Of a DNA stretch of 60,574 nt, positions 1,697 through 39,853 are shown piece after piece (within the stretch, counting starts at the first letter, position 1; every line of letters begins with the position of its first letter). This DNA is from Mycoplasmataceae bacterium (GTDB lineage: Bacteria > Bacillota_I > Bacilli_A > Mycoplasmatales > Mycoplasmoidaceae), in assembly GCA_031255095.1 (NCBI GenBank), contig JAIRTE010000020.1, positions 1-60,574 of the forward strand. Reading direction: 5' to 3'. A program made the translations under genes and the position numbers. Below the pieces are notes generated by a model that was not told where the DNA came from, searched no databases, and saw only the letters and a list, made by a program, of their open reading frames with translations.

Positions 1697-4600
1697 TTAC
1701 CCAATCAATCCCAAAATCTCTTTAATAATAGCATTTTTTCTATCTAGTCTATATCATTCTAAAGAATCAATACGATAGAACTTTCATCCTCTGCTTTCTA
1801 GATAATGTTGTCTATAGTAATCATTTTCTTTAGCTGAAAGATCTAAATTTTTATAATGATAATCATCATATTCTATTGCTAATACATATTCATTAGTCTT
1901 TCTATTCTTGATTGCTAAATTAATGTTATAACCACTTTGTTCTAGTTGTGGAATAACTTCATATTCTACTTCATTAATTTGTGATTTTAATAAACTAATT
2001 ACTTCAGATTCAAATACTGTATCAATTTTTTCTTGGATTTTATCCAATATATTTGGATTCTTATTTTCCAAATATTTATGGAAAAGTGTTTTAATAGCAT
2101 CAGAATCTAATTTATTTTGTTGTAATATTTCCACATATTTAATAAAATCACTAAATATAGCAACACCTTTAGGTAATACTTCTTTTTTAGAATTTAAAAG
2201 CATTGATGAGTGGAAAGATTTAAAGATATACATCTTTTCTCTAGAACGAGAAATAATAACATTAATTCTATTCTCTCCTCCAGCAGTGCTAACCGGACCA
2301 AAGAAAGAGTTGAAAACACCTTTCTTGTTTTTAGCATAAGTTGTTGAAATAATAATAATATCTCTTTCATCTCCTTGTACATTTTCTAAGTTTTTAACAA
2401 ACAAAGAATCATCATCTCCATTTTCTTTAACTCTTTCTAATTCTTTCTTTAATAAAATATTATCACTTTTCATAATCATTTTCTCAATTAACATTTTTTG
2501 TTTAATGTTAAATGTAACAATACCAATTGATCCATGTTTTGGATCAGCTACTATTTCCTCAAGTTTTTCAAAAACTTTTGCAGCTTCAGCATTATTAATA
2601 CCATCTTCTCATAAACCCTTTTCCACTTCAATTACTTCTATTCCTACCTTTTTTTCTGTTGGAGAATTGGCAACTACTAAATTACCATCATAGAAACAAA
2701 TATTAGAAAATTCAATTAATTCTCTTTTAGTTGAACGGTAGTGGTAATTTAACATAATATTCTTAAATTTCTTTTCAATGTATTCTAATAAAGAATTACT
2801 ATCTTGTAATTCTGATAAACCAGTAGAAATATAACTTTGATCATTTTCATCATACAAATCTTCGTATTCTTCTTTTAGTTTACCTTGTCACATAGAAGAA
2901 GGTTGCAATTGTTGTTTGTCCCCTGAAATAACTGCTGTTTTTGATAAAAAGATCAATGGAATTGATCTTTCTATTGTAACCTGTGACGCTTCATCAAAGA
3001 TAACATAATCAAATTTACTATTCTTATATAGTGTTGCGGCAGTATTGGGATTAGTAATGACAATTGGAAATGCATGGAATAATGCATTTGGATAACGTTT
3101 AATTACTCAATCCAAATTTCTTTTTAATTTATTATTAGCATGATTAATTAAATCAGAAAATTCTTTCATTAATCCTTCTTCATTCTCCAAAGCTTTTTTT
3201 AAATTAGCATTGCATCGAGCATATATTGTTTCAATATCTGCAATGACTTTCTTGCTTAATAAAGTTTTTATTTCCTTTTTAATTTCCTCAGGTTTGAAAT
3301 TAAAAACTTGTTGGTTTTTGTGTTCAAATTTTAAATATTTTTGATAATCTAAAATATCATTGTAATTGAAATTAGTGATATTGTATGTGGCAATGAATTT
3401 ATTTAATTCTAAAGTAATTAAATTATCGATTGCATTATAGAATAATTCAAATTTTTTAAAATCAAATGTTTTAATTTTGGATAGGTTGATAGCAATTTTA
3501 TGTAATATAAAATCATGGACATTTGGATTTGCTTTAATGAATTTTTTATTCGCATGTTTATTAAAAAAGCTATAATTTTTTTTAGTTTTGTCTTTTCGGT
3601 AATAAAAAATTAATTCATCCATATGTGAAGGATTAAATTTTGTTTCATTAAAATGATTAGCTAATTTCGTAATTTTTTCTATTTCTTGCAAATTAATTTT
3701 ATTAGTATTAAATAGTGTTGCATAAAAATCATAATATGTTTTTTGTTCAATAAAATCATTAATGTATTCTCAAAACTGATTTTCTTCAATAAATTTTGGT
3801 AAATTTTTAACAGCTTCATTTCATTTTTTGAATGTTTCAAATCTATCTTTTGATTTTTGTAAAAATTTTATTTGTTGAACAGTATTTTTGTTACACTTAA
3901 ATTCATTATATGAATTAAGTATTTCAAAATTTTTATCAATACTTTCTCGTATTTCATCTGCTCTTGGTTTTAAATTAATGTCATTTAATATAGTTTTTAC
4001 TTTAGAATAGAATAAATCCTTATCTGCAGTACCTTGCAGATTAAAAAGCATAATTGAAAATTTACTTAAAATATTTAATCTTTTTTCAATTACTTCAGCG
4101 GCAGTAAATTTTTCACTTATAAATAATACCCTTTTACCTTTATAAATAGCATTTGCTATGATGTTAGCAATAACTTGAGATTTACCTGTACCAGGTGGTC
4201 CTTGAATAACTGTATCATCATTCAATGATTTTTTAATTGCTAATTTTTGTGAAAAATCCAAATCAGTAATTTGTTTGATTTCTGATTCTAAGAAATCTTT
4301 ATCATCATTGTTTAATTCAATTGAAAACTTTTCATCAAGTTTTTTATAAAATTCAATTGCATTTTCGTCTTTGATCATTTCATTATACATTTCTATTAAT
4401 GATGCATTTTCACAACTAAATATTCCTAAACAACAAAAATCATCAAATTTCTCACAATAACTATCATCAAAAGATTTTAATAAATCTTCTTTACCAATTT
4501 TTTCATTTAAAAATTGACTAATAGTTGTCTTTTTAAATATTGTCTCAATTTGATCCTCTTCTGCATTATCAAAATTGATACCAATTTTTTTACACAAAAC

Positions 4601-5173
4601 TTTTACAAATGTATCAAAGTCATCACTAGGATACTGTGGAATATCAATATCAAATATATCGATGTTTTTCTTGTTTATAACTGCTAAACGAGAAAACAAT
4701 ACGTAATTGATTGTTGGTTTAATGATATCACAATCTGTTTGTAAGGAAATTTCAAAAGTAATGTTATCCACTTGTTTAACATTAATTTTTCAAAGAAATA
4801 GTGGTGAACGGAAAATATTTGAAACTTCTTTAGAAGTTTTATCACAATTACCAGTAATATATGGATAACCTAAGAACAGGTTATCAACACCAGTCTCCTT
4901 TGTTTTCTTTTCGTTGGTCTTTAAAATCGCTTTAAGTTTATTAACCTCTTTTGTTAACAATTCATTATTAGCACTAAGCTTAATAATTACTTTTTCACCA
5001 TTGAATAACTTTTTCTTATTGTTATCAATACTTAAAATATTGTAAAAATCCATTACAATAGAAGATTTTTCATTAAATCTTGTATAAAAACTTTGTGATA
5101 ATGTTTCTTTAAGGATTAATTTACGTTGCAATCCACGTAAATGTTTAATAACATCATTTTTATTTAAACTCAT
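1697..5173 (-). CDS. DUF4011-helicase-Vsr protein (Hhe-like, superfamily I helicase with nuclease domain)
   Basis: This is one 1158-residue frame once TGA is read as Trp. Residues ~60-150 carry a DUF4011-like segment (ETGVDNLFLGYPYI, then SPLFLWKI). A superfamily I helicase core follows: Walker A GPPGTGKS near residue 325, Walker B/motif II FDEASQV near 727 with ISGDKQQLQPS just after, motif V VQGDERDIIIIS and motif VI ENRINVIISRSREK. The last ~100 residues look like a Vsr/MTES_1575 restriction-endonuclease fold (VLAIEYDDYHY, then GWKFYRIDSLEWY). The same domain order is known for the single-gene anti-phage candidate Hhe (DUF4011-helicase-Vsr). ATP-driven nucleic-acid unwinding with DNA cleavage is therefore the likely activity; a defence role is inference. 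It starts at ATG 5173, ends 18 bp from the opposing surface-protein gene, and shows no break. Confidence 0.9.
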
Positions 5174-12029: not shown

Positions 12030-12773
12030 CTAATTCAAAATCATCCCTTCATATATTCTTTTTATTGATGTTCAATCATTATTACAAATAGAAAAATCAT
12101 CATCATCAGCAAAATGAATGTGATATGTAGAATTAGTATCTTTTCGTATATATCAATTTTCTAAAGTAGATCTTTCCGTAACATCATTCATTGATTCTAC
12201 TAAAGTACCATTAACATCAGCTCATGCCTGCATTGTAGTTTTAAAATTGTTTGTTAGATAATTTGCTTTCGTTATTAGAGTTGTTGTATATAGCTGACTA
12301 TCATTCCAACCAATTGTAGTGGTTATTAAAGTAGCATTATTTTGTGAAAAATTAACCTTTAATGTCGTTGATTTTATGCCACTACCAGATTGTGGTGTAT
12401 CACTGAACTGGTATTGACTAATTTCACTTTGTAGTGAAGATAAAAAAGACTTTATATACAATTTAGGTAAATTTTCATTAAATAAAAGTCCCCTAGTTTT
12501 ATTAGTAGAATATAGTTTTTTATTAGTTGCATCAAGAGCTCAATTTTCGCTATTGCCATTATCTATACCTTCAACACTTGGTTCAATTTTATGAGCTGGA
12601 TCATCTAAAAAACTTTTTAACTTATTAGTGTCATTATGAGATTTACTAAAAGTAAATGATAATGGATCTTCTTGTTTAGCTTCACTTTTACAAGAAGTTA
12701 ATACTGTTGACACAATAGCAACTACACTACCCATTACGAATAATCCTGCAAATAATTTTAAGCTTACCTTCAT
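12030..12773 (-). CDS. Putative lipoprotein with phase-variation-type promoter
   Basis: The 247-residue protein has the signal MKVSLKLF, a hydrophobic core and lipobox VLTSC, so it should be a surface lipoprotein. The mature part is Ser/Thr/Asn-rich with several Trp coded by TGA; no domain is recognised. Its signal peptide resembles that of the 20023 lipoprotein (MKIGLKLF, then ILTSC), which suggests a small paralog family. Upstream, TATAAA (12787-12782) ends 8 bases before the ATG and a run of 16 A lies 14 bp further upstream. This is the layout of promoters switched by homopolymer slippage in other mycoplasmas. The C-terminus ends with a cluster of four Asp. Confidence 0.8.
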
Positions 12774-12947: not shown

Positions 12948-13313
12948 TTATTCATTATCTTTTTTCGTTTTATTTCTTTTAAAAATAATTAAAAGGAAAG
13001 CAAATATAAGAAAACATGAACCTAACACATATATTGGTATTGTATTTGTGATTAATGTATTTGGTTGAGTGGTTTGCAAAATTGTCAAATATAAATGTAT
13101 TGTTGCTTCTTTTTGAATATTGTAATCTTGTAATGTTTTTTCATTCAATAAATCTTTTCCAGCAAATACTAATTTTATTTGGTCGATTGAATAATTTTCA
13201 TGTAATTCTGTGTTGTAATACTCAGAAATCATTTGTTTCACATAAAGAATAGTTCAATCATTTTCAACAGAAAGTGTTATATATGTTTCATTTATCTTAA
13301 TAAAAACATCCAT
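12948..13313 (-). CDS. Ubiquitin-like protein with C-terminal transmembrane anchor
   Basis: The 121-residue protein aligns by eye with eukaryotic ubiquitin over residues 1-79, with roughly 30 identical positions. Landmarks are the start M-x-V-F-I-K, [21 protein letters not shown] and the run [14 protein letters not shown]. Equivalents of Lys6, Lys27, Lys48 (K53) and Lys63 (K68), and of the Ile44/His68 patch (V49, H73), are present. About seven residues are inserted between helix 1 and the DQ turn. The terminal Arg-Gly-Gly is absent; instead a spacer leads to one hydrophobic helix (residues ~92-111) and a basic tail ([10 protein letters not shown]). It cannot be conjugated in the usual way. 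The basic tail favours a cytosolic C-terminus and an outward ubiquitin fold; a tail-anchored, inward fold is the alternative. One TGA is Trp20. It lies divergently beside lon. Confidence 0.88.
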
Positions 13314-13430
13314 TACAAAATTAAATGTATATAACAAAACATAAAAATGAAGTTGCCATTATTATATTTTTCTCTCCATTTTAAGTATTTAAAAATTCTT
13401 TTTATAGTATACTATAAATAAAAAAATTTA

Positions 13431-13457: not shown

Positions 13458-13462
13458 ACATG

Positions 13463-13468
13463 TATAAT
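13463..13468 (+). promoter_or_regulatory. -10 box of lon
   Basis: TATAAT ends 6 bases before the ATG at 13475, so the transcript would begin at the start codon. This argues for the start at 13475 rather than the in-frame ATG at 13460, which would lie upstream of the -10 box. Confidence 0.65.
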
Positions 13469-13474
13469 AACAAT

Positions 13475-15820
13475 ATGCCAAGAACTCCAACTAAGAAAAT
13501 TACTGATGTTAAAGATGAAAATGCATTACCATTGATAGTTACACGTGGAATTATTTCATTTCCAGCATGTAAATTAGTTTTGGACATTGGTCGTCCTAAG
13601 ACTATTAAAGCGATAGATATGGCAATGCAAAATAACAATAACCAAATTATCGTTACTTCGCAAATCAATCCTTCAATTGATTCGCCTAAACCAAGTGATA
13701 TGTACCAATTTGGTACAGTATGTACCATTGTTAATAAGAAAGAAGCCTCTGATGGTGGTTATACAATTACTGTTAAAGGTGTTTCAAGAGCTAAATTAAC
13801 TAAAATTTATGATGGTGATATTTTCTCTGCATCCTATACGATAGTGCAATCTAATGTTAAAGATGCAGAGAAAATTGCCAACAGTTATGGAATTTTATCT
13901 AACTATGTTAATTCAAACTCATTATCAGTTAATAAAGAAGAACTAAATTTGTTAAAAAAATTATTAGCCTCTGGTAATGATCCAGTAGTAGTTTCAGATA
14001 TTATTGCCAATGCAATGCCAATTGATTTCTATGAGAAACAGGATTTTTTAGAAGAATTAAATGTTGCTAAAAGATTGGAAACATTAGTTGTTAAATGTAT
14101 TCCTGATAGTGAAAAAAATAAAATTGATTCTGCTGTTAGCAAAAAAGTTAGTGATGTTTTGGCTAAACAACAAAAAGAATTTTATTTACGTGAAAAAATG
14201 CGTGCTGTTAAAGATGAATTAGCAACTGTGAACACCAAAGAAAATGAATCAAAAGCATTTTCACAAAGAGTTCAAAATGAACCATATCCTGAATATATTA
14301 AAGAAGCAGTTTTACGTGAAATTGATAAATTGGATGCTTCACATATTCAAGAAGCTGCAATTATTAAATCTCAAATTGAATGATTATTAAACTTGCCATA
14401 CTGACAAGCAACTGTTGATAATGCTGATATTGTTGACGTTGAAAAAAAATTAAATGAATCACATTATGGGTTGGAAAAAGTTAAAAAACGTATTTTGGAA
14501 TATTTAGCACTTAAAATTAGAAATCCAAAAGCCAAAGCACCAATTTTGTGTTTAGCTGGTGCTCCAGGTGTTGGTAAAACATCTTTAGCTAAATCAATTG
14601 CTAATGCTTTAGGCAAAGTATACATTAAAATGTCTTTAGGTGGTATGCATGACGAATCTGAAATTAGGGGACATAGAAAAACATATTTAGGATCAATGCC
14701 AGGTAGAATTATTAAATGTATGAGACAAGCTAAAGTTAACAACCCTTTGTTTTTATTAGATGAAATTGATAAATTAGGTGTAGATTCTGGTAATAAAGGT
14801 GATCCTTCAAGTGCTTTATTAGAAGTTTTGGATCCAGAACAAAACTCAGAATTTGTTGATAACTTTATTGAAGAAAAATACGATTTGAGTAATGTAATGT
14901 TTGTTGCTACAGCAAACTATATTGACAGAATTCCATCTGCATTGTTAGATCGTTTAGAATTAATTGAGCTTTCTTCTTATACTGAAAGAGAAAAACTTGA
15001 AATTGCTAAAAACTATTTAGTTAAAAGAGCTAAAGATGAGTGTTTAATTAAAGATGAATTAGAATTCGATGATGCATCTTTATTATTTATAATTAGACAT
15101 TACACTAGAGAATCAGGTGTGAGAGAATTAACTCGTATTATTCAAACAGTATGCAGAAAATTTATTGTTAACTTAGCACACGATAAAACTTTAAAAGTTA
15201 AAGCTGATGAAAAATTAATTGTTGAATATTTAGGTAAAGTACTTTATGACTATACTTCTAAAGAAGATGGAGTTATTTCAGGAATTGTTAATGGTATGGC
15301 TTATACTTCTGCAGGTGGAGATTTATTAAAAATTGAAGCAACTGTGTTCCCTGGTAAAGGTAATATCATCATTACAGGTAATTTGAAAGAAACAATGAAA
15401 GAATCAGCACAGGTTGCTTTAGGTTTTGTTAGATCAAATGCTGCTGCATTTGGAATCAAAGACTTTGATTTTGCTAACAAAGATATTCACATTCATGCTC
15501 CTGCTGGTGGTATTCCAAAAGATGGTCCTAGTGCTGGTGTTACATTAACAACTGCTATTATTAGTTCTATTAGAAATGTTGTTATTCCTAATAACATTTC
15601 AATGACTGGTGAAATTACTTTAAGAGGTAAAGTGGGTATTGTTGGCGGAATTAAAGAAAAAGTAATTTCAGCATTTAGAGGTGGAGTTAATGAAATATTT
15701 TTACCAAAAGATGATGAAAGATATTTAGAAGATGTTCCAGCGGAAATTAAAGATCACATTACTTTCCATTTAATTGATAAATATACAGATATTTATGATA
15801 GTGTTTTTAAGAAAAAATAA
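13475..15820 (+). CDS. lon: ATP-dependent protease Lon
   Basis: This 781-residue LonA protein has an N-terminal LAN domain (LPLIVTRGIISFPACKL), a helical linker, an AAA+ module (Walker A GAPGVGKTS, Walker B LFLLDEIDKLG) and a C-terminal protease domain. That domain has the catalytic Ser in PKDGPSAGVT and Lys in GKVGIVGGIKEK. It degrades misfolded and regulatory proteins in the cytoplasm. Conserved Trp residues between linker and AAA+ (WLLNLPYW) are TGA-coded. I chose ATG 13475 because TATAAT ends 6 bases upstream; the CIRCE-like operator indicates heat induction. The gene is complete. Its divergent neighbour is the ubiquitin-like gene; a functional link is speculation. Confidence 0.97.
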
Positions 15821-28518: not shown

Positions 28519-30540
28519 ATGCAAAGTAAGTTAGTTTATAAAATGATGCTTGACAAAGAAATGATTGGTAAAAAAATTAAGATACCAACATGGTTGTTAC
28601 AAAATCTTTATTTACCAGAGGCGAATTCTTATGGAAATAAAATGGTAAGTAGTGTTGGTTATTTAGCAGTTCATGCTGATTCAACTAATGCCAATGAAGA
28701 AAAATATATAGAACAAATAATATACTGAACATTTAAAAATAAACCCGAGGCGTTATTTGAACACTTGCAAGTTCTGACAACTATGACTGTTACTGCATTT
28801 ACCACAGGTACATCATGTTTACAATATATTCTAGATGTTACAGAGCTTGAAAAAGAAAAATATGGTTATATGCCTGATTTTAATTATCTTGAAAAAATTA
28901 AAAAATTATTTGATGAAAAGGAGCAAAAAGCTAAAAAAACCATTGCTGCACAAACAGATAATTTTAAAGGAATAATTTTAACACTTGGAGAAGAATTTAA
29001 TATGCCAGCTGAATATTTAGAAGGAATGAAATTAAAAGATTTGATAATTACATATATTACAGCAGCAAAAATAGATAGTTTTGTTATTCCTGATGATTGA
29101 AATAATGATAAAGCAAATCTAAGCACAGAACAACTTAAATTACTAAAAGGTAAAATACCATCTAAAGTTTTTAAGTTAGTTGAAAATATTCAGAAAAACA
29201 AAGATATGATACCAGAATTGCAAAAGGAAAAGAAAAATGTTCCTACTATTTCAAAGAAATATGAAGAATTAATATTAACTAGAAAAAATGAAGTTGAAAA
29301 AACTCTTGCTACAAAAACGAAAGAATTTAAAAAAATAATTTTAACACTTGGGAAAAAAGTCAATATGCCACCTGAACATTTAGAAGGGAAGACACTAAGA
29401 GATTTGGTAGTGACATATGCTTCAGTAGCAAAATTAACTAGTTGTGTCCTTCCTGATAATTGAGGTATTGAAGATGTAAATCTTAACGCAAAACATCTTG
29501 AAACTTTAAAAGGAAAATTACCTTCTAAAATTTTTAAGTTAGTTGAAAGTATACAAAAAAACACATATATATTTAAAGAACTAAAAAACGATGCTGATAA
29601 TATTCCTGCTGTTTTAGAAAGATATACTACAGTTCTTGATATGTGAGAAAGCACTCAAAAGCAAAGAGCAATTTTGGAAAAATATGCAAAACTTGCAAAT
29701 AAAATTAATAGTTTTTGTGGTCAAGAAATGGGTATTAGTGTTAAAAATATGCCAACAAAAATTGCTGCAAGTGCATGTTTAAATATTACTGAGGCTGCAT
29801 GTAATACATTAGGAGTAGAATGTAATAAGATATTACATAGAGTACCTAATTTATTTCCAAATACAACACAATACAACCCTGTGGTTTTAGTTGGAAAAGA
29901 ACAACAAGATATGCCCTTTGAAGTTACACAATTTGAAGGAGACCAATTATATGATTATGTAATTTCTAAATGAGAAAGAGGTGAAAAAATCCACCCATTG
30001 AAAAAATTCCAGCATTTTTCTGTATATTTGGTAAGTAAGTTTACTTCTTTATTTACTGGAAAATATAATGAACCTCATATATATATTGATAGATTTTCTA
30101 GTACTAAAACTCAATCAACAAACACACAAGATTCTACAGCCGAGCCACTAAAACCTGAAGAAACACAAATTCCTAATAAAACATTACATAAAACTAAAAC
30201 GACTGCCAAAACTCCATATGTTTCGAAATTTTCTGCTAAAACTGATGTAGGCGTATTATCTGTTTCTGATGCTTTATATACTCTTGATGCAGAAGATAGT
30301 GACTTGTCTTTAAAAGAAGGAAAAAGCACAGTAGTCATTGGAATAATAACTGAAAAACCTACAGATATGCCTGATCCAACTAAAGTTTTCCACTACCCAG
30401 TTGTTGAAGAGGTAGTTGATATTGTTGATACACCTACTGCTGCACCAATGGCTCCTAGTGATCATATTGATGAATCAAATGATTTAGAAAATCATTCTTC
30501 AGTTGAAAAAGATGTTTTGGTAGATGTTGATGGTAAATAA
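28519..30540 (+). CDS. Hypothetical protein with a 121-residue internal duplication
   Basis: The 673-residue protein has no signal peptide. Two copies of a ~121-residue module follow each other exactly 363 bp apart: IILTLGEEFNMPAEYLEG, then LLKGKIPSKVFKLVENIQKN, and IILTLGKKVNMPPEHLEG, then LKGKLPSKIFKLVESIQKN. A helical middle follows, then a Thr/Pro/Asp-rich, disordered-looking tail (residues ~530-673). Several Trp are TGA-coded. I know no family. A 14-base hydrophobic-poor composition and length suggest a cytosolic structural or effector-type protein, but nothing proves this. It lies upstream of the giant surface-protein cluster, separated by a probable terminator. Confidence 0.75.
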
Positions 30541-30771: not shown

Positions 30772-32895
30772 ATGAATTGAAGACGTGCTTTGAATATTTT
30801 AGGGATTAGCATGATTGCTGCAACAACAGCAACTGCTGGTATATTGATATATAATCATGTTTTAACATTTAAACAACCAATATTACAACAAGATTCTGAA
30901 AATACTAAAAATGATACTATATCATTGGAACCAATAGATTTAACTAATCCAAATAATAAGATTAAATTTAAAAGTTATAATCCAATGGCTACTGGTATTG
31001 AAGATGGTATTTATCAAATAAAACTTGATCAAGAAGATATTACGGGTATTAAAAGTTATGCTGGCAGCACTAAAATATTATCCTCATCTGTTGATGTCCA
31101 ACAAAGTCCACAATTAAATATTATTAGATCAGCATTATTAGAGCAATTTAGTTTTACCCCTATTCCTAAGGAGGGAAGCGAAGATATATATGATATGGGT
31201 AAAAATAATGGAGTATTTAAATACACTGACCAATGATATTTTTCTTGTTGGTTGTTGAGCAATGGTGATTCATATGATGAGTCTAGCGATCCAGAAAATA
31301 TAGTTGGTGTTAAAGTTAAACCTTATAGCTATTCTATAAATTATGATACTACTACTGAAGCTTGTATTGAGTGAGAATCAAGAGAATTAGGCAAAACAAC
31401 TTTACCAGAAAAAATTGTTTTACCACCTGTATACACAAATCCAAGATACATTGAAACAGTAGATGGTAATAAAAAAATACATCCTGCAAGATTAAAAACA
31501 AGTGATTTTGGGATTAAGGATATATTGCAAATTTTGGTATTGGAAGGTTCAAATTTAAATTTTACTGAATTAAATTTGCGTTTTGATAATGGTGAGTCTG
31601 GTGCAAACCACATTTCAGGTGCTTTTATTGAAGTAAAAGAAAACTCCTCTATCTATAATAATAATGGTAATAGAAGCCAAATCTTTATCAATTTAGTTAA
31701 TGCTTTGACTTTCGATGGTGCACCAATAAACTTAAAAGCTGGTGATATTAACAAAGAAATCAAATTCAAATTTAGTAATAAAGATGTATTACAAGCTAAT
31801 GAAGTAGAAGTAGACATACTTTATGATAATTTACCTGCAACAATGAAAAAAGTCAATTCTGCTAATGAAGTAAAATTATGTAAGAGTGAGGAGGCAGATC
31901 AAGCTAACATTATTCTTCAAAAAGATACTAATTCATGAAAACTTAGCTATACTGGTTTTACTAATGTACAAAGACAAGGTAATTTTTTTGAAAACATGAC
32001 AATTACTTTAAAAGCCACTTATAAAAAAAAAATTAAAAAAGATAATACTGAATTATATACAATTCCTCACACTGCTACACATAAAGTAAATATATCACGA
32101 AATGGAGTTGGCCATGAAGACCACACAATGACATTTAATAAAATTGCCAATGACGAACTTTTAAGTATAACTGATGTTAATACTACTGATTTAGTTTTCT
32201 ATAGTGAAGATAATATTAAAAATATAGAAGATAGTTTTAATGGTGTTCTTTTATCAAATAATGCAAATACAAATACAAAAAATGGTGAATACTATATTGG
32301 CAATGCCAATGATCATACATTCTGAGAAATACAAAATAAAACTACAGGCTTTGGAATTATAGATCATGACAATATTACTAATTACACAATTACTGATGGT
32401 ACAATGCCGTCTGATCCATCAATTAGCATCCCCACAAATAGTGAATTAGTTTGTTCAGGAAATGATATTGTTAAAGACATCAACCCATATGGTGTAAATT
32501 TAGGCACTAATGGTTTTATATTAGGAACTAGTGTATTAAACACAAATCCTGTTTTTGCTTGTACAGTAAAACCATCAGTAGGACAAAATTTTTATAAATT
32601 TAATGATTGAAAAAAAGATTTATCTAGTGGTGAAAAAGGCAAATATAGTTACTATGCTTCTTCACTATTTTTAGTTGATGAGTATGACAATGTATTGTTT
32701 TTAGATGTCAATGATAATAAAGTTTATACAAAAAGTTCAAAGAAACCTGGAGATGAATTCACTGGTAGCAAAGCATATGCTAAATTTGTACATTTTTATT
32801 ATTTTTTATTTGATGAAGCATCGAATGCTGATTTTTTTACAGGTGGAAATCCAAAAACACTTAAATTTTCATACATTCCAAATTACACAAGTTAA
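30772..32895 (+). CDS. Large exported protein with N-terminal signal anchor
   Basis: The 707-residue protein begins MNWRRALNILGIS, a basic start followed by a hydrophobic helix (residues ~7-28) without a lipobox Cys, so it is probably held by an uncleaved N-terminal anchor with the rest outside. The exterior part is Asn/Thr/Asp-rich and beta-prone. Its end (AYAKFVHFYYFLF, then FSYIPNYTS) matches the end of the protein at 2-1678. TATAAA (30758-30763) ends 8 bases before ATG 30772. It is first in a cluster of three on the same strand, with gaps of 2-5 bp. Adhesion or host contact is inference. Confidence 0.8.
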
Positions 32896-35392: not shown

Positions 35393-38300
35393 ATGAACAC
35401 TAATATCAACAATTCCCAAACACTAAATAATAAAAAACCAAATACTCCACCTCTTAATAAAAGACAACAAGAAGAAAAGGATTTAGAAAATAGAAAGAAA
35501 AAATTTAAAATATTAATATTATTAATTATCACAATAATAATCATTATTATTGTTGCTTTATTAACTACTTGGTCTTGTTCTACAATAGCTGCTGGTAAAG
35601 ATGCAAGCAAATTAAAAGGACATTTTGGTTATCAATATCAAAGATATTTTAAGGGTAGCGAAGAGAGGGAATATCCTTCAAAAGATCATGAAACAGAAGC
35701 ACAAATCAATCTTACTGATTTTCATGCTAGAAAATTAAGTGACATGGTAGTTAAAAATGAAAGAAATGCAGTAAGAATAATTTTCCTTCCACAAGAAGGG
35801 GCAAAAAGTAGTGAAATTTATAATGAAGAAACAGGCGAATTATTTTTAAATGTGAATAATTTCCAATTATGAAATAATTCTGGTTACAATTCAGGTTTAA
35901 CAATGGAATTTAAAGCCAACTATAATTTTTCTCCTGATGTAACTAAAAATGCAGCAGATGATTCAGTAGAAGTAGATTTAGAACCCAACCGTATTGACAC
36001 TGAATGATCATTTGCCATGGAACAAGCTTTAGACAAACATGATTGTTATTTGCATTATCTTTCTGCTAACAAAAGAATTGATTTTAAAATTGATCTAAGA
36101 CCATCTGATGGTAAATTAGATTTTTATGATAAAAATGATGTCACTAAACAAAAATACTATTTTAATTTTAGCACTGATGCTATGAAAAATGGTGACAAAT
36201 TAGACTATATTACAAAAAATCCTAATCCTCAAGTATTTGATTCATTTACCATTGCACATGGTAAATACAATAATAAGAATTTAAAAAACCAAAAAATTAT
36301 CATTAAACCAAATATGAGTAACTTTTCTAATGAAGTATATAAAAAAATGATTTTGAAGATTGGTTTTGATGATAACACAATTGATAAGGGCGATAATACA
36401 TGATTTGAAGTTGTGTTTGATGTTGATAATAATGGAACAATTGCTACACAAAGTTTAGCAAGATACACTCAAAAACTACTTTCTGCTGATCCTGATACTG
36501 ATTCTAAAATTAAAGTATTAGAAGCATTAGAATTTACACATGTTAATACACATGATGATCACCAATGAGAAATATCTTTTGGTAATAACGATGCAAAATT
36601 GAAGGAATTAGCTAAAAATGTTTCTGTGGATGTGCCCTTGACTTTTGCTATTTTCTTAAAATCGAGAAATGATCAACTTGTTGATTTAATGGCAAATGAA
36701 GGTGCCCAATATTATCCTAAAATTAATATTAAACCAGTTATTTATAATTCTGAAATTACACAGGTTTTTGGTACAAGAAAAGCTAATGAGGAACAATCTG
36801 AAGACTTAAAAGAATTTTTTAATGATGTAAAAGATGCAAAAGATGCAAAAGATGTAAATGGTTACGATTACAATGATCCCACTGACATTATCAATACAAA
36901 ATTTTTTTCTTCTGAAATTGCTAATTCCCGTAATTTTTTAGTTTATAAACAAACGTTTGTTAACTTAACTGAAAATAATTTTGCTCCGAAAATTGAATAT
37001 TTGTCTAATGATCATTCTAATCTTTTAACCACAATAAAAGTAAAAAAGGCAAATAATTCAGAAACTTATTATTATATTTTTAGGGCTGGAGATTTTGACA
37101 AACCCAATATTAGACCAGGTAATAATCTTATCCTTAATATTTCTTCAGCTATAAACAATGCTGAACTAATAAATTTCGAATATGAAAATGCTGATAATTT
37201 TTATAAAAAGAAAATTATATATACCGCAAATACTGAAGTTTTTTTAGGATTAAGAGATAAGGAAAAATTAAAAAACAATGGTGACTTCATTTTGGATTAT
37301 ACTAATAATTCATCATTAACTAAAAGCCAATTGCATATTTTTGACCAACCTAAATTATCTTTAGAATCTTCTGACACAGGAAAAACAATAACAACATTTG
37401 ATGAAGAACCTAATTTTTTTTCAGATTATTTTTCTTTGAATATTACTAAAAAATTTGATACAGGCTTTGCCAGTTATACTTTTTCAAGAATTTGAACTAA
37501 TAAACTTGATAATAAATTTGCAGAACATTTTTATCCTCCTGGCAGCGCTATACCACCTGCAAACGCAGATGGTGTTCCACTGGATATCAAATTTTGTATT
37601 GAAGTTTTTGACAATGCTGGAACGAAATATAATGCTTCATGTTTTGTCAGATTATATTTGGAACAATCTTTAACTGCTGAAATTGATGATTTGTCAAGCA
37701 ATCCAGATAGTACAAATTGATATGTAAATGATCATAATATTATTACTGGAAAAGGAAATTTGGTACTTACATTAAAAGGTTCATCTTTTTCTAGAGATTT
37801 AGACAATAATCCTATTATTAGCACAATAAAACCTATTAGTGGTCCTTGGGATGGTGGTAATCTTGAAGATTTGCTGGCTGTTGATATAAAACCTGCTATA
37901 GGTAGTGAAAGTGGAGATGGATATAGAGATAGAATTTATAGTGCAATAATTTCATATACTGGAGATAAAGAAGATGATTTTACTTTTGAAATAACTTTTG
38001 GTTTTACAAATGATGCCGATCCTACGCAGCCTGACACAACATGACAATATTCAAATCGTCTGATAGTACACTACAAATTTGCCAAAACAATAGCAATTTC
38101 AACTGAACCTGGTGTAAACGATGATGCAGTATTAAGCCTTGATGGTGAAAAAAATAGATTTAAAGCAACTGTAACATTTGGTAATATGCCATTTGAAGAT
38201 ATTGATTTTGAAAATATAAAATATTTTATTGTTGATAAAAATGAGTATGATCTTGATAATGATAAAATTGATGATATCAAATTTTCAATTCCAGAATGAA

Positions 38301-39853
38301 TCCAAATTTCTAAAATTAATGAATTAAAACATACAAATATAACATTATCTGCAATTGAAGATCCACTACTATTAATTGGTAAAGATGGTGAGGATGGAGA
38401 TGAGTTTGCAAAGTATTGAGATAAAAATAGAGATCATAAATATACAATTAGGGTTGAATATACATATAATGGTACTGAGAAACTTTCATCATTATTAACA
38501 CAATCCACTTTTAAAATAGCAGCTCCAGAACATAAAATTAAGTATAGTGTTGATAATAATGTTATTGCTTCTGAATCAATTGCCTATAAATTTGTTGGTG
38601 GCACAAATGAAGAAATATCTAAAGCAGAAAACTCATTTAAACTTTCAGGTACTGATACAGTTACAAACCAAGAAATTCTTATTGATGATAAAGAAATGTT
38701 TTTTTATGCTAAAATTTCAAGTGGATCGGAAGGTAAATGAACACAGATGCTTGCAGACAAGCAAATATCTCCAGATCCTGAAAAAAATTATTTCATTGAT
38801 GAGAATGGCAATACATATTTTAAGTTAAATGCTCAAAAATATCATAATAATGATGCTGGATATGCAAATATTTTAGAATATAAAGATGCGACATCAAATT
38901 GGAAATTATCTGTACATAATTTTAAAATACCTGAACCTGCAGAAATATATGTAAGTAACGGAAAAGAAGGCACAAAAGAAAAAATTGGTGCAACATTAAT
39001 TCCTAGTGAAAATGTCTTGTTCTCAAGTATTTTAGGAAATGAAGGCGATACAAATTTCGATAAAAAAAATAAAAAATTAACAATTGATTTAACTAATGAA
39101 GAAACAAATTTATGAATAGAGGATTCGTTAAATATTAATAAGGCAATAGAAAAAATAACAAGTGTATTGAATAATTTATCACAAAAAGGCAATATACTTA
39201 ATGATGATACTGCTGGTAGTGTTAATTATACATTTGTTGAAAATAATATAGAATACATCGGTCTTGAACATGCAAGTGATGGTGATAGTAGATATTCTAA
39301 TGGATTATTGAATTTCAAAATTAAAAATGATAGTGAAAACCCATATTTTAAATGTACAGACTCAACAAATCCTTCTACAACTACCTACCCACAAATTAAT
39401 TTTGATATAACAATTAGTGTTAATTTCTTTACAACCGTAACTGATATATATGATATATATGCAAAAGTTGGTGAAATCATATATAGTGATAAGAACAAAT
39501 CAGATGATAAATATAATGCCTTGAGATCTTTAATTAAAAGAAAAGTAATTGGTACAACAACAGATGGAGGCAAAATTTATGAATATTATTTATCATTAGG
39601 TAATGTATTCTTACCAACAGGACATCAAGTTGCAACTGCTGATATTGCATTAGCATTTAATAATGCTATAGAAGAATTGATCGACAGTGTCGACGCCGAT
39701 GATGTACAAATAAGAAATTTTTTAAATTCTATATACTATCCTGAGTTAACATTAAATAACCAAACTAATACATTATTAGCTGAACAAAAAGTTGTTAATG
39801 CTCATCATGGAAAAATAGCTATATACTGAAATGAAGTATTTGTAAAAAATTAA
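35393..39853 (+). CDS. Giant surface protein, 1486 residues
   Basis: This is the longest gene of the window. The N-terminus has a ~37-residue charged cytosolic part (RQQEEKDLENRKKKFK), a very hydrophobic helix (residues ~40-58) and then WSCSTIAAG, so it is a type II-anchored or lipid-modified exterior protein. The exterior is Asn/Asp/Lys/Thr-rich with alternating beta-like strands; no catalytic motif is seen. A short Asp-Ala-Lys repeat (VKDAKDAKDAKDV) lies near residue 480. The frame ends at TAA 39851-39853, but homologous-looking coding sequence continues in another frame to 40259, so the present C-terminus may be truncated. It is the last gene of the three-gene cluster. Confidence 0.8.

Follow-up and report, generated by a model that had tools for sequence, protein, structure and literature searches.

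The window, meaning the whole 60,574-nucleotide stretch of DNA analyzed here, encodes a small ubiquitin-like protein on its minus strand. The open reading frame runs from 13313 to 12948 and comprises 121 codons plus a stop when translated with code 4, a single in-frame TGA being read as tryptophan; the plus strand across 12948-13313 is interrupted by stops throughout. The gene, its parts and its immediate neighbors are as follows:

12948..13313, minus strand: CDS P0001, 121 aa, code 4, with an N-terminal ubiquitin domain, a transmembrane helix and a basic tail; stop at 12950-12948 (translation, PF00240, AlphaFold2)
13080..13313, minus strand: ubiquitin beta-grasp domain, residues 1-78 (PF00240 over residues 3-76, AlphaFold2 pLDDT >90, Foldseek)
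13254..13256, minus strand: TGA codon specifying Trp20 in the mollicute code; Trp is absent from ubiquitin itself
13041..13079, minus strand: Thr-rich uncharged linker, residues 79-91, replacing the RLRGG tail (hydropathy and charge readout, alignment)
12981..13040, minus strand: transmembrane helix, residues 92-111 (Kyte-Doolittle 2.66 over 19 residues; AlphaFold2 helix 94-120)
12951..12980, minus strand: basic C-terminal tail of 10 residues, predicted to be cytoplasmic (positive-inside rule; 5 K/R vs 2 D/E)
12030..12773, minus strand: neighboring lipoprotein-like ORF (MKVSLKLFAG...SC motif), no Pfam family in a Pfam search
13460..15820, plus strand: neighboring Lon protease, divergent from the ubiquitin gene (Pfam Lon domains)

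A promoter scan gives a result at chance level.

Residues 1-76 of the encoded protein are a genuine ubiquitin domain. PF00240 matches residues 3-76 with an E-value of 4.5e-14 and 52.4 bits, against a curated Pfam cut-off of 25.4; the control for the ubiquitin search gives no match in any of 14 well-known genomes. Single ubiquitin chains of the PDB match the protein at about 1e-9 to 1e-10 by phmmer, and the best 60 phmmer PDB matches are ubiquitin chains or engineered ubiquitin variants. AlphaFold2, run with an alignment of bacterial relatives, predicts strands and helix in the succession typical of the beta-grasp fold, at pLDDT 91-98 over residues 1-80, and a separate helix at 94-120 beyond the ubiquitin domain. 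The best PDB matches of this model by Foldseek are ubiquitin, mostly at an rmsd of 1.6-1.8 Å and a target TM-score of about 0.88. The above-threshold Pfam match and the beta-grasp fold place the protein in the ubiquitin superfamily, as the initial annotation had proposed, and the structure prediction it had called for recovers the expected fold.

Aligned with human ubiquitin, the domain is identical at 35 of 74 residues (about 46%), close to the roughly 30 identities counted by hand beforehand, and at 20 of 32 over positions 40-71; hydrophobic residues are kept at all 14 core positions examined. Lys48 and Lys63 are retained, as had been noted, Lys11, Lys29 and Lys33 are lost, and six residues are inserted after the ubiquitin helix. 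Within the Ile44 patch, R42K, I44V, G47 and H68 survive, position 70 is changed (V70Y) and Leu8 is without an equivalent.

The conjugation tail is gone. Where ubiquitin proper ends in RLRGG, the window protein reads TILQT, lacking both glycines and Arg72, and the transmembrane helix follows. The source genome (G000) has no match to the E1/ThiF family (PF00899), for which control searches match 12 of 14 genomes. Because the glycines are lost and no E1-like gene is found in the same genome, the protein is not a conjugated modifier; conjugation is excluded for the window ubiquitin. ThiS/MoaD, Bil and other prokaryotic conjugation systems have the beta-grasp fold in common with it; however, the ThiS/MoaD/Bil systems depend on an E1-like enzyme and on a Gly at the C-terminus, and the window case has neither. 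Eukaryotic membrane-anchored proteins of the HERPUD/TMUB type carry a ubiquitin-like (UBL) domain that is tied to the membrane and not conjugated. The window protein is likewise a membrane-tied, unconjugated UBL, with a sequence nearest to Pfam ubiquitin and not to other Pfam UBL families.

An order-wide search of 320 genomes finds matches only in G000, G012 and G030, all of one genus, in which the gene is present in 3 of 36 members; in a phylum sample, 4 of 392 genomes match, the window genome included. Both relatives share the plan of the window protein, supplying the mollicute orthologs that the initial annotation had suggested looking for, and both carry TGA Trp codons of their own. In G012 (L082, JAITFD, isolate Nm470_bin9), the ubiquitin domain, transmembrane helix and RKRHR are followed in frame by a Peptidase U32 domain. 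An in-frame TAA directly precedes the ATG, so this protein is without a signal peptide; a TTG at the fusion point of ubiquitin and U32 is a possible internal start. The matching U32 protein of G028 stands alone and lacks a signal peptide. In G030 (L079, JAITWZ, isolate Zx50_bin17), an 80-residue linker separates the ubiquitin domain from the transmembrane helix, which is followed by RKRQRNK. A tandem ubiquitin within that linker, suggested by eye, was rejected, the profile scoring -1.4 bits vs 8.2 for the best of 200 shuffles and AlphaFold2 giving low-confidence helices. F4, T14, T55, D58 and Y59 are kept across the three mollicute proteins, a conservation that is in part structural; I44Y occurs in both relatives and H68D in one of them.

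A ubiquitin match in G028 (E 0.05) overlaps a ribosomal protein L15-like ORF and was dismissed as spurious. A SUMO-protease partner (PF02902) was rejected as well, the family being confined to G029, where the ubiquitin search gives no match. The genomic neighborhood is not conserved: the three mollicute ubiquitin genes lie in three different surroundings, none is beside lon in the relatives, and a ubiquitin gene adjoins none of 29 related lon loci. As a separate observation, G029 encodes two C48 (Ulp1/SUMO protease family) peptidases above cut-off (L091, L092).

In place of Gly-Gly, as initially recognized, the window protein carries a transmembrane helix and a basic tail. Mean Kyte-Doolittle hydropathy over the 19-residue core 92-110 is 2.66, a transmembrane-like value; the 10 residues after the helix carry +5/-2 charges, and the stretch before it is uncharged. 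Basic tails are conserved in the G012 and G030 proteins, the K/R counts after the helix being 5, 4 and 5 in the three, with an uncharged N-terminal side. Signal-peptide and transmembrane calls here and below follow simple hydropathy rules and not a trained predictor. The complete open frame spans no more than 136 codons, and residues 1-40 contain no hydrophobic stretch; the roughly 15 codons upstream of Met1, where ubiquitin begins, are too few to encode a signal peptide. The basic tail that follows the helix in all three proteins and, in G012, the normally cytosolic U32 domain downstream of it favor an inside C-terminus and hence an outside ubiquitin domain. We moderately prefer this predicted topology, with a cytoplasmic tail and an outward-facing ubiquitin domain; the lack of a signal peptide is a cue against it. 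N-tail translocation could export an N-terminal domain of 80 residues that precedes a transmembrane helix, but this is unusual, and ubiquitin folds fast.

To our knowledge, ubiquitin is usually regarded as absent from bacteria, with the exception of BfUbb (Bacteroides fragilis Ubb). BfUbb is 63% identical to human ubiquitin and is soluble, with a cleaved signal peptide (PMC3352274; PMC5705921). The initial claim that no bacterial protein is so like ubiquitin does not hold, given that BfUbb is 84% similar to the human protein (PMC5705921) and that most of the 82 bacterial loci described below are nearer to ubiquitin than the window protein is. The two proteins are alike in their apparent eukaryotic origin, in lacking a terminal Gly-Gly and in fold, the BfUbb structures 8hm1 and 8hm3 being among the best Foldseek matches. 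For the window protein, the positive-inside rule and the U32 fusion favor a location outside the cytoplasm. BfUbb differs in its N-terminal signal peptide, soluble mature form and higher identity to human ubiquitin, whereas the window protein is anchored, has no signal peptide and is about 46% identical. The window protein is a real, nonconjugatable, membrane-anchored mollicute ubiquitin, a variant of the BfUbb kind, whose function we infer.

We scanned for further bacterial ubiquitins with the three mollicute domains as query, using patterns that required either TL[QK]DY[NS]IQ or an alternative motif; Gln57 is over-represented in the result as a consequence. The scan finds 82 loci across many phyla, 80 of which were kept and read (L011-L090). 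A signal-peptide-like stretch precedes MQIFVK... in 67 of the 80, a C-terminal transmembrane-like stretch is present in 25, many with basic tails, and in none does the ubiquitin domain end in RGG. Export, as predicted from these stretches, is the rule among bacterial ubiquitins. Because named isolates carry members (Leeia oryzae DSM 17879, Chromatocurvus halotolerans DSM 23344, Collinsella massiliensis, Frisingicoccus caecimuris DSM 28559 and Lactococcus laudensis DSM 28961), the wider set is not an artefact of metagenome-assembled genomes (MAGs). These exported proteins resemble the window protein in having ubiquitin at the mature N-terminus, no Gly-Gly and often a C-terminal transmembrane helix with a basic tail; they differ in their signal-peptide-like stretches, in the long extra domains that most of them carry and in lying mostly nearer to ubiquitin. 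Closest to the mollicute plan among the other bacteria is that of a Bifidobacteriaceae MAG (L024:3350-4441), in which ubiquitin, about 260 P/T-rich residues, a transmembrane helix and RRRRRERQ follow one another, with no signal peptide. L072:3-584 encodes two ubiquitin-like domains in tandem and then a C-terminal transmembrane helix; the second copy, at 27 bits, is real. The open-access literature searched describes BfUbb and gives no account of exported ubiquitins in mollicutes or over a range of phyla. The wider set of Gly-Gly-less, mostly signal-peptide-bearing bacterial ubiquitins thus appears to be little described, and as a finding it outweighs the window gene.

Capture from a eukaryote is the simplest reading of the origin of the ubiquitin domain, as the initial annotation had it. 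Homology to eukaryotic ubiquitin is full-length, with a parabasalid as the proposed donor type, but the signature of the window protein is mixed (35 matches to human ubiquitin vs 33 to the presumed Trichomonas sequence), so its donor cannot be named. H12, T20, R22, D25, N54, Q57, S60 and D64, present in many bacterial ubiquitins, are residues that we take to be those of Trichomonas vaginalis ubiquitin; N54, Q57, S60 and D64, presumably Trichomonas residues, are also kept in the G030 protein. The only naturally single-ubiquitin PDB chain that passes 1e-40 with the bacterial consensus is 5xy3_m (‘Ubiquitin, putative’), which we take to be a chain of the T. vaginalis ribosome. The ubiquitin phylogeny proposed at the outset groups the window protein with L014, L024, L050 and L082 at 92/86, although the tree is weak, being built from 73 columns; the five have EN at 18-19 in common and partly also KEA at 63-65. 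For the three mollicute ubiquitins, the AU test does not reject a clade (p 0.26); the free tree, however, keeps them apart, and a single capture in the genus was set aside. In the Lon tree, G012 and G030 are sisters and G000 lies elsewhere, giving at least 2 changes of the ubiquitin trait. A viral origin was also dropped, since a scan of viral contigs returned 110 pattern matches and no relative.

As to function, we tentatively favor, at not quite an even chance, a captured, nonconjugatable ubiquitin displayed on the cell surface as a binding module toward a protist host or competitors. In this reading, bacteria would have acquired a ubiquitin domain of eukaryotic origin, the conjugation tail would have disappeared, and the mollicute lineage would have added a C-terminal membrane anchor. 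The domain would be exposed on the outside, as is predicted for those ubiquitins elsewhere in bacteria that carry signal peptides, and would serve as a surface binding module, most likely against ubiquitin-recognizing proteins of a protist (flagellate) partner or against neighboring bacteria, acting by occupancy, as a decoy or adhesin, and not by tagging. Against surface display stand the need for export without a signal peptide, harder still for the roughly 340-residue N-terminal part of L024, and the Ile44 patch, whose lack of conservation among the three mollicute proteins disfavors the simplest decoy version.

The two congeneric MAGs that carry the gene have isolate codes, Nm470_bin9 and Zx50_bin17, which we take to denote a termite-gut MAG series. 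The passages of PMC9137090 that were searched do not settle that meaning. Mycoplasmatales are listed among the putative endosymbionts of termite gut flagellates, and gene exchange among flagellate symbionts is described (PMC11257099). The protist-associated niche guessed at initially is therefore plausible, and this niche, together with the comparable plan of L024, favors the binding of host proteins. Neither Ank_2 (ankyrin) families nor the TLC ATP/ADP-translocase family is found in the genus, the TLC search having been run without a positive control, so gene content does not show intracellular life. A broader version, in which gut-flagellate symbionts of several phyla took host-type ubiquitin, stripped its tail and display a nonconjugatable mimic that engages host ubiquitin-handling proteins, with the gene passing among co-resident symbionts, is conceivable but somewhat doubtful.

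An internal membrane adaptor, tail-anchored with its ubiquitin domain in the cytoplasm and acting as the bacterium's own interaction module with no host role, we regard as doubtful. The lack of a signal peptide in the three mollicute proteins and L024 suits it, as do the fast folding of ubiquitin, which disfavors N-tail export, and the drift of the surface patches for eukaryotic partners while the core and D58-region residues are kept; the topology deduced from the basic tails and the U32 fusion is opposite to the one it needs. A domesticated or drifting relic, with a role unrelated to ubiquitin surfaces or in slow decay and a patchy distribution produced by gain and loss, would fit the 3 of 36 genus members, the long branches in the ubiquitin tree and the unconserved surface patches. 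It is improbable, however, given intact frames in three deeply diverged species (Lon is about 55% identical across the genus), the retained hydrophobic core and the new W codon. The secreted, Gly-Gly-less BfUbb inhibits other B. fragilis strains (PMC5705921), and PDB entry 8hm3 is titled ‘Complex of PPIase-BfUbb’; both point to antagonism, in which a surface-held ubiquitin would bind a target on competing bacteria. BfUbb, however, is made with a signal peptide and is free and soluble (PMC5705921), whereas the window protein is anchored and only about 46% identical to ubiquitin, which makes such a module quite improbable here. Contamination or mis-binning of eukaryotic DNA, to which an assembly in 52 contigs, probably a MAG, might be open, is very unlikely because two further species of the genus carry homologs with TGA Trp codons and the same plan at unrelated loci; the gene itself uses TGA for Trp, lies amid mollicute genes (MetRS, the lipoprotein-like ORF and Lon) within a contig of 60.6 kb, from a genome of 997 kb that is 93% complete and 0.6% contaminated, and has a GC content (0.23 over 13000-13399) as low as that of the surrounding region (20-32%).

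The locus thus places a membrane-anchored ubiquitin in a small-genome, wall-less bacterium. If the outward display that we favor is correct, bacteria would repeatedly have turned ubiquitin into a binding domain that works outside the cell, and the testable question becomes its binding target, whether host ubiquitin receptors, proteases or other bacteria.

Elsewhere in the window, three large plus-strand ORFs of 673, 707 and 1486 aa (28519-30540, 30772-32895 and 35393-39853) have no Pfam match at 0.001. A minus-strand gene at 1697-5173, possibly a defense gene, has a product of 1158 aa that combines helicase AAA domains with a REase_MTES_1575 nuclease domain at the C-terminus. In G012, a [FeFe]-hydrogenase large subunit (L002:2-1444), here in a mollicute, is encoded directly upstream of the ubiquitin gene.
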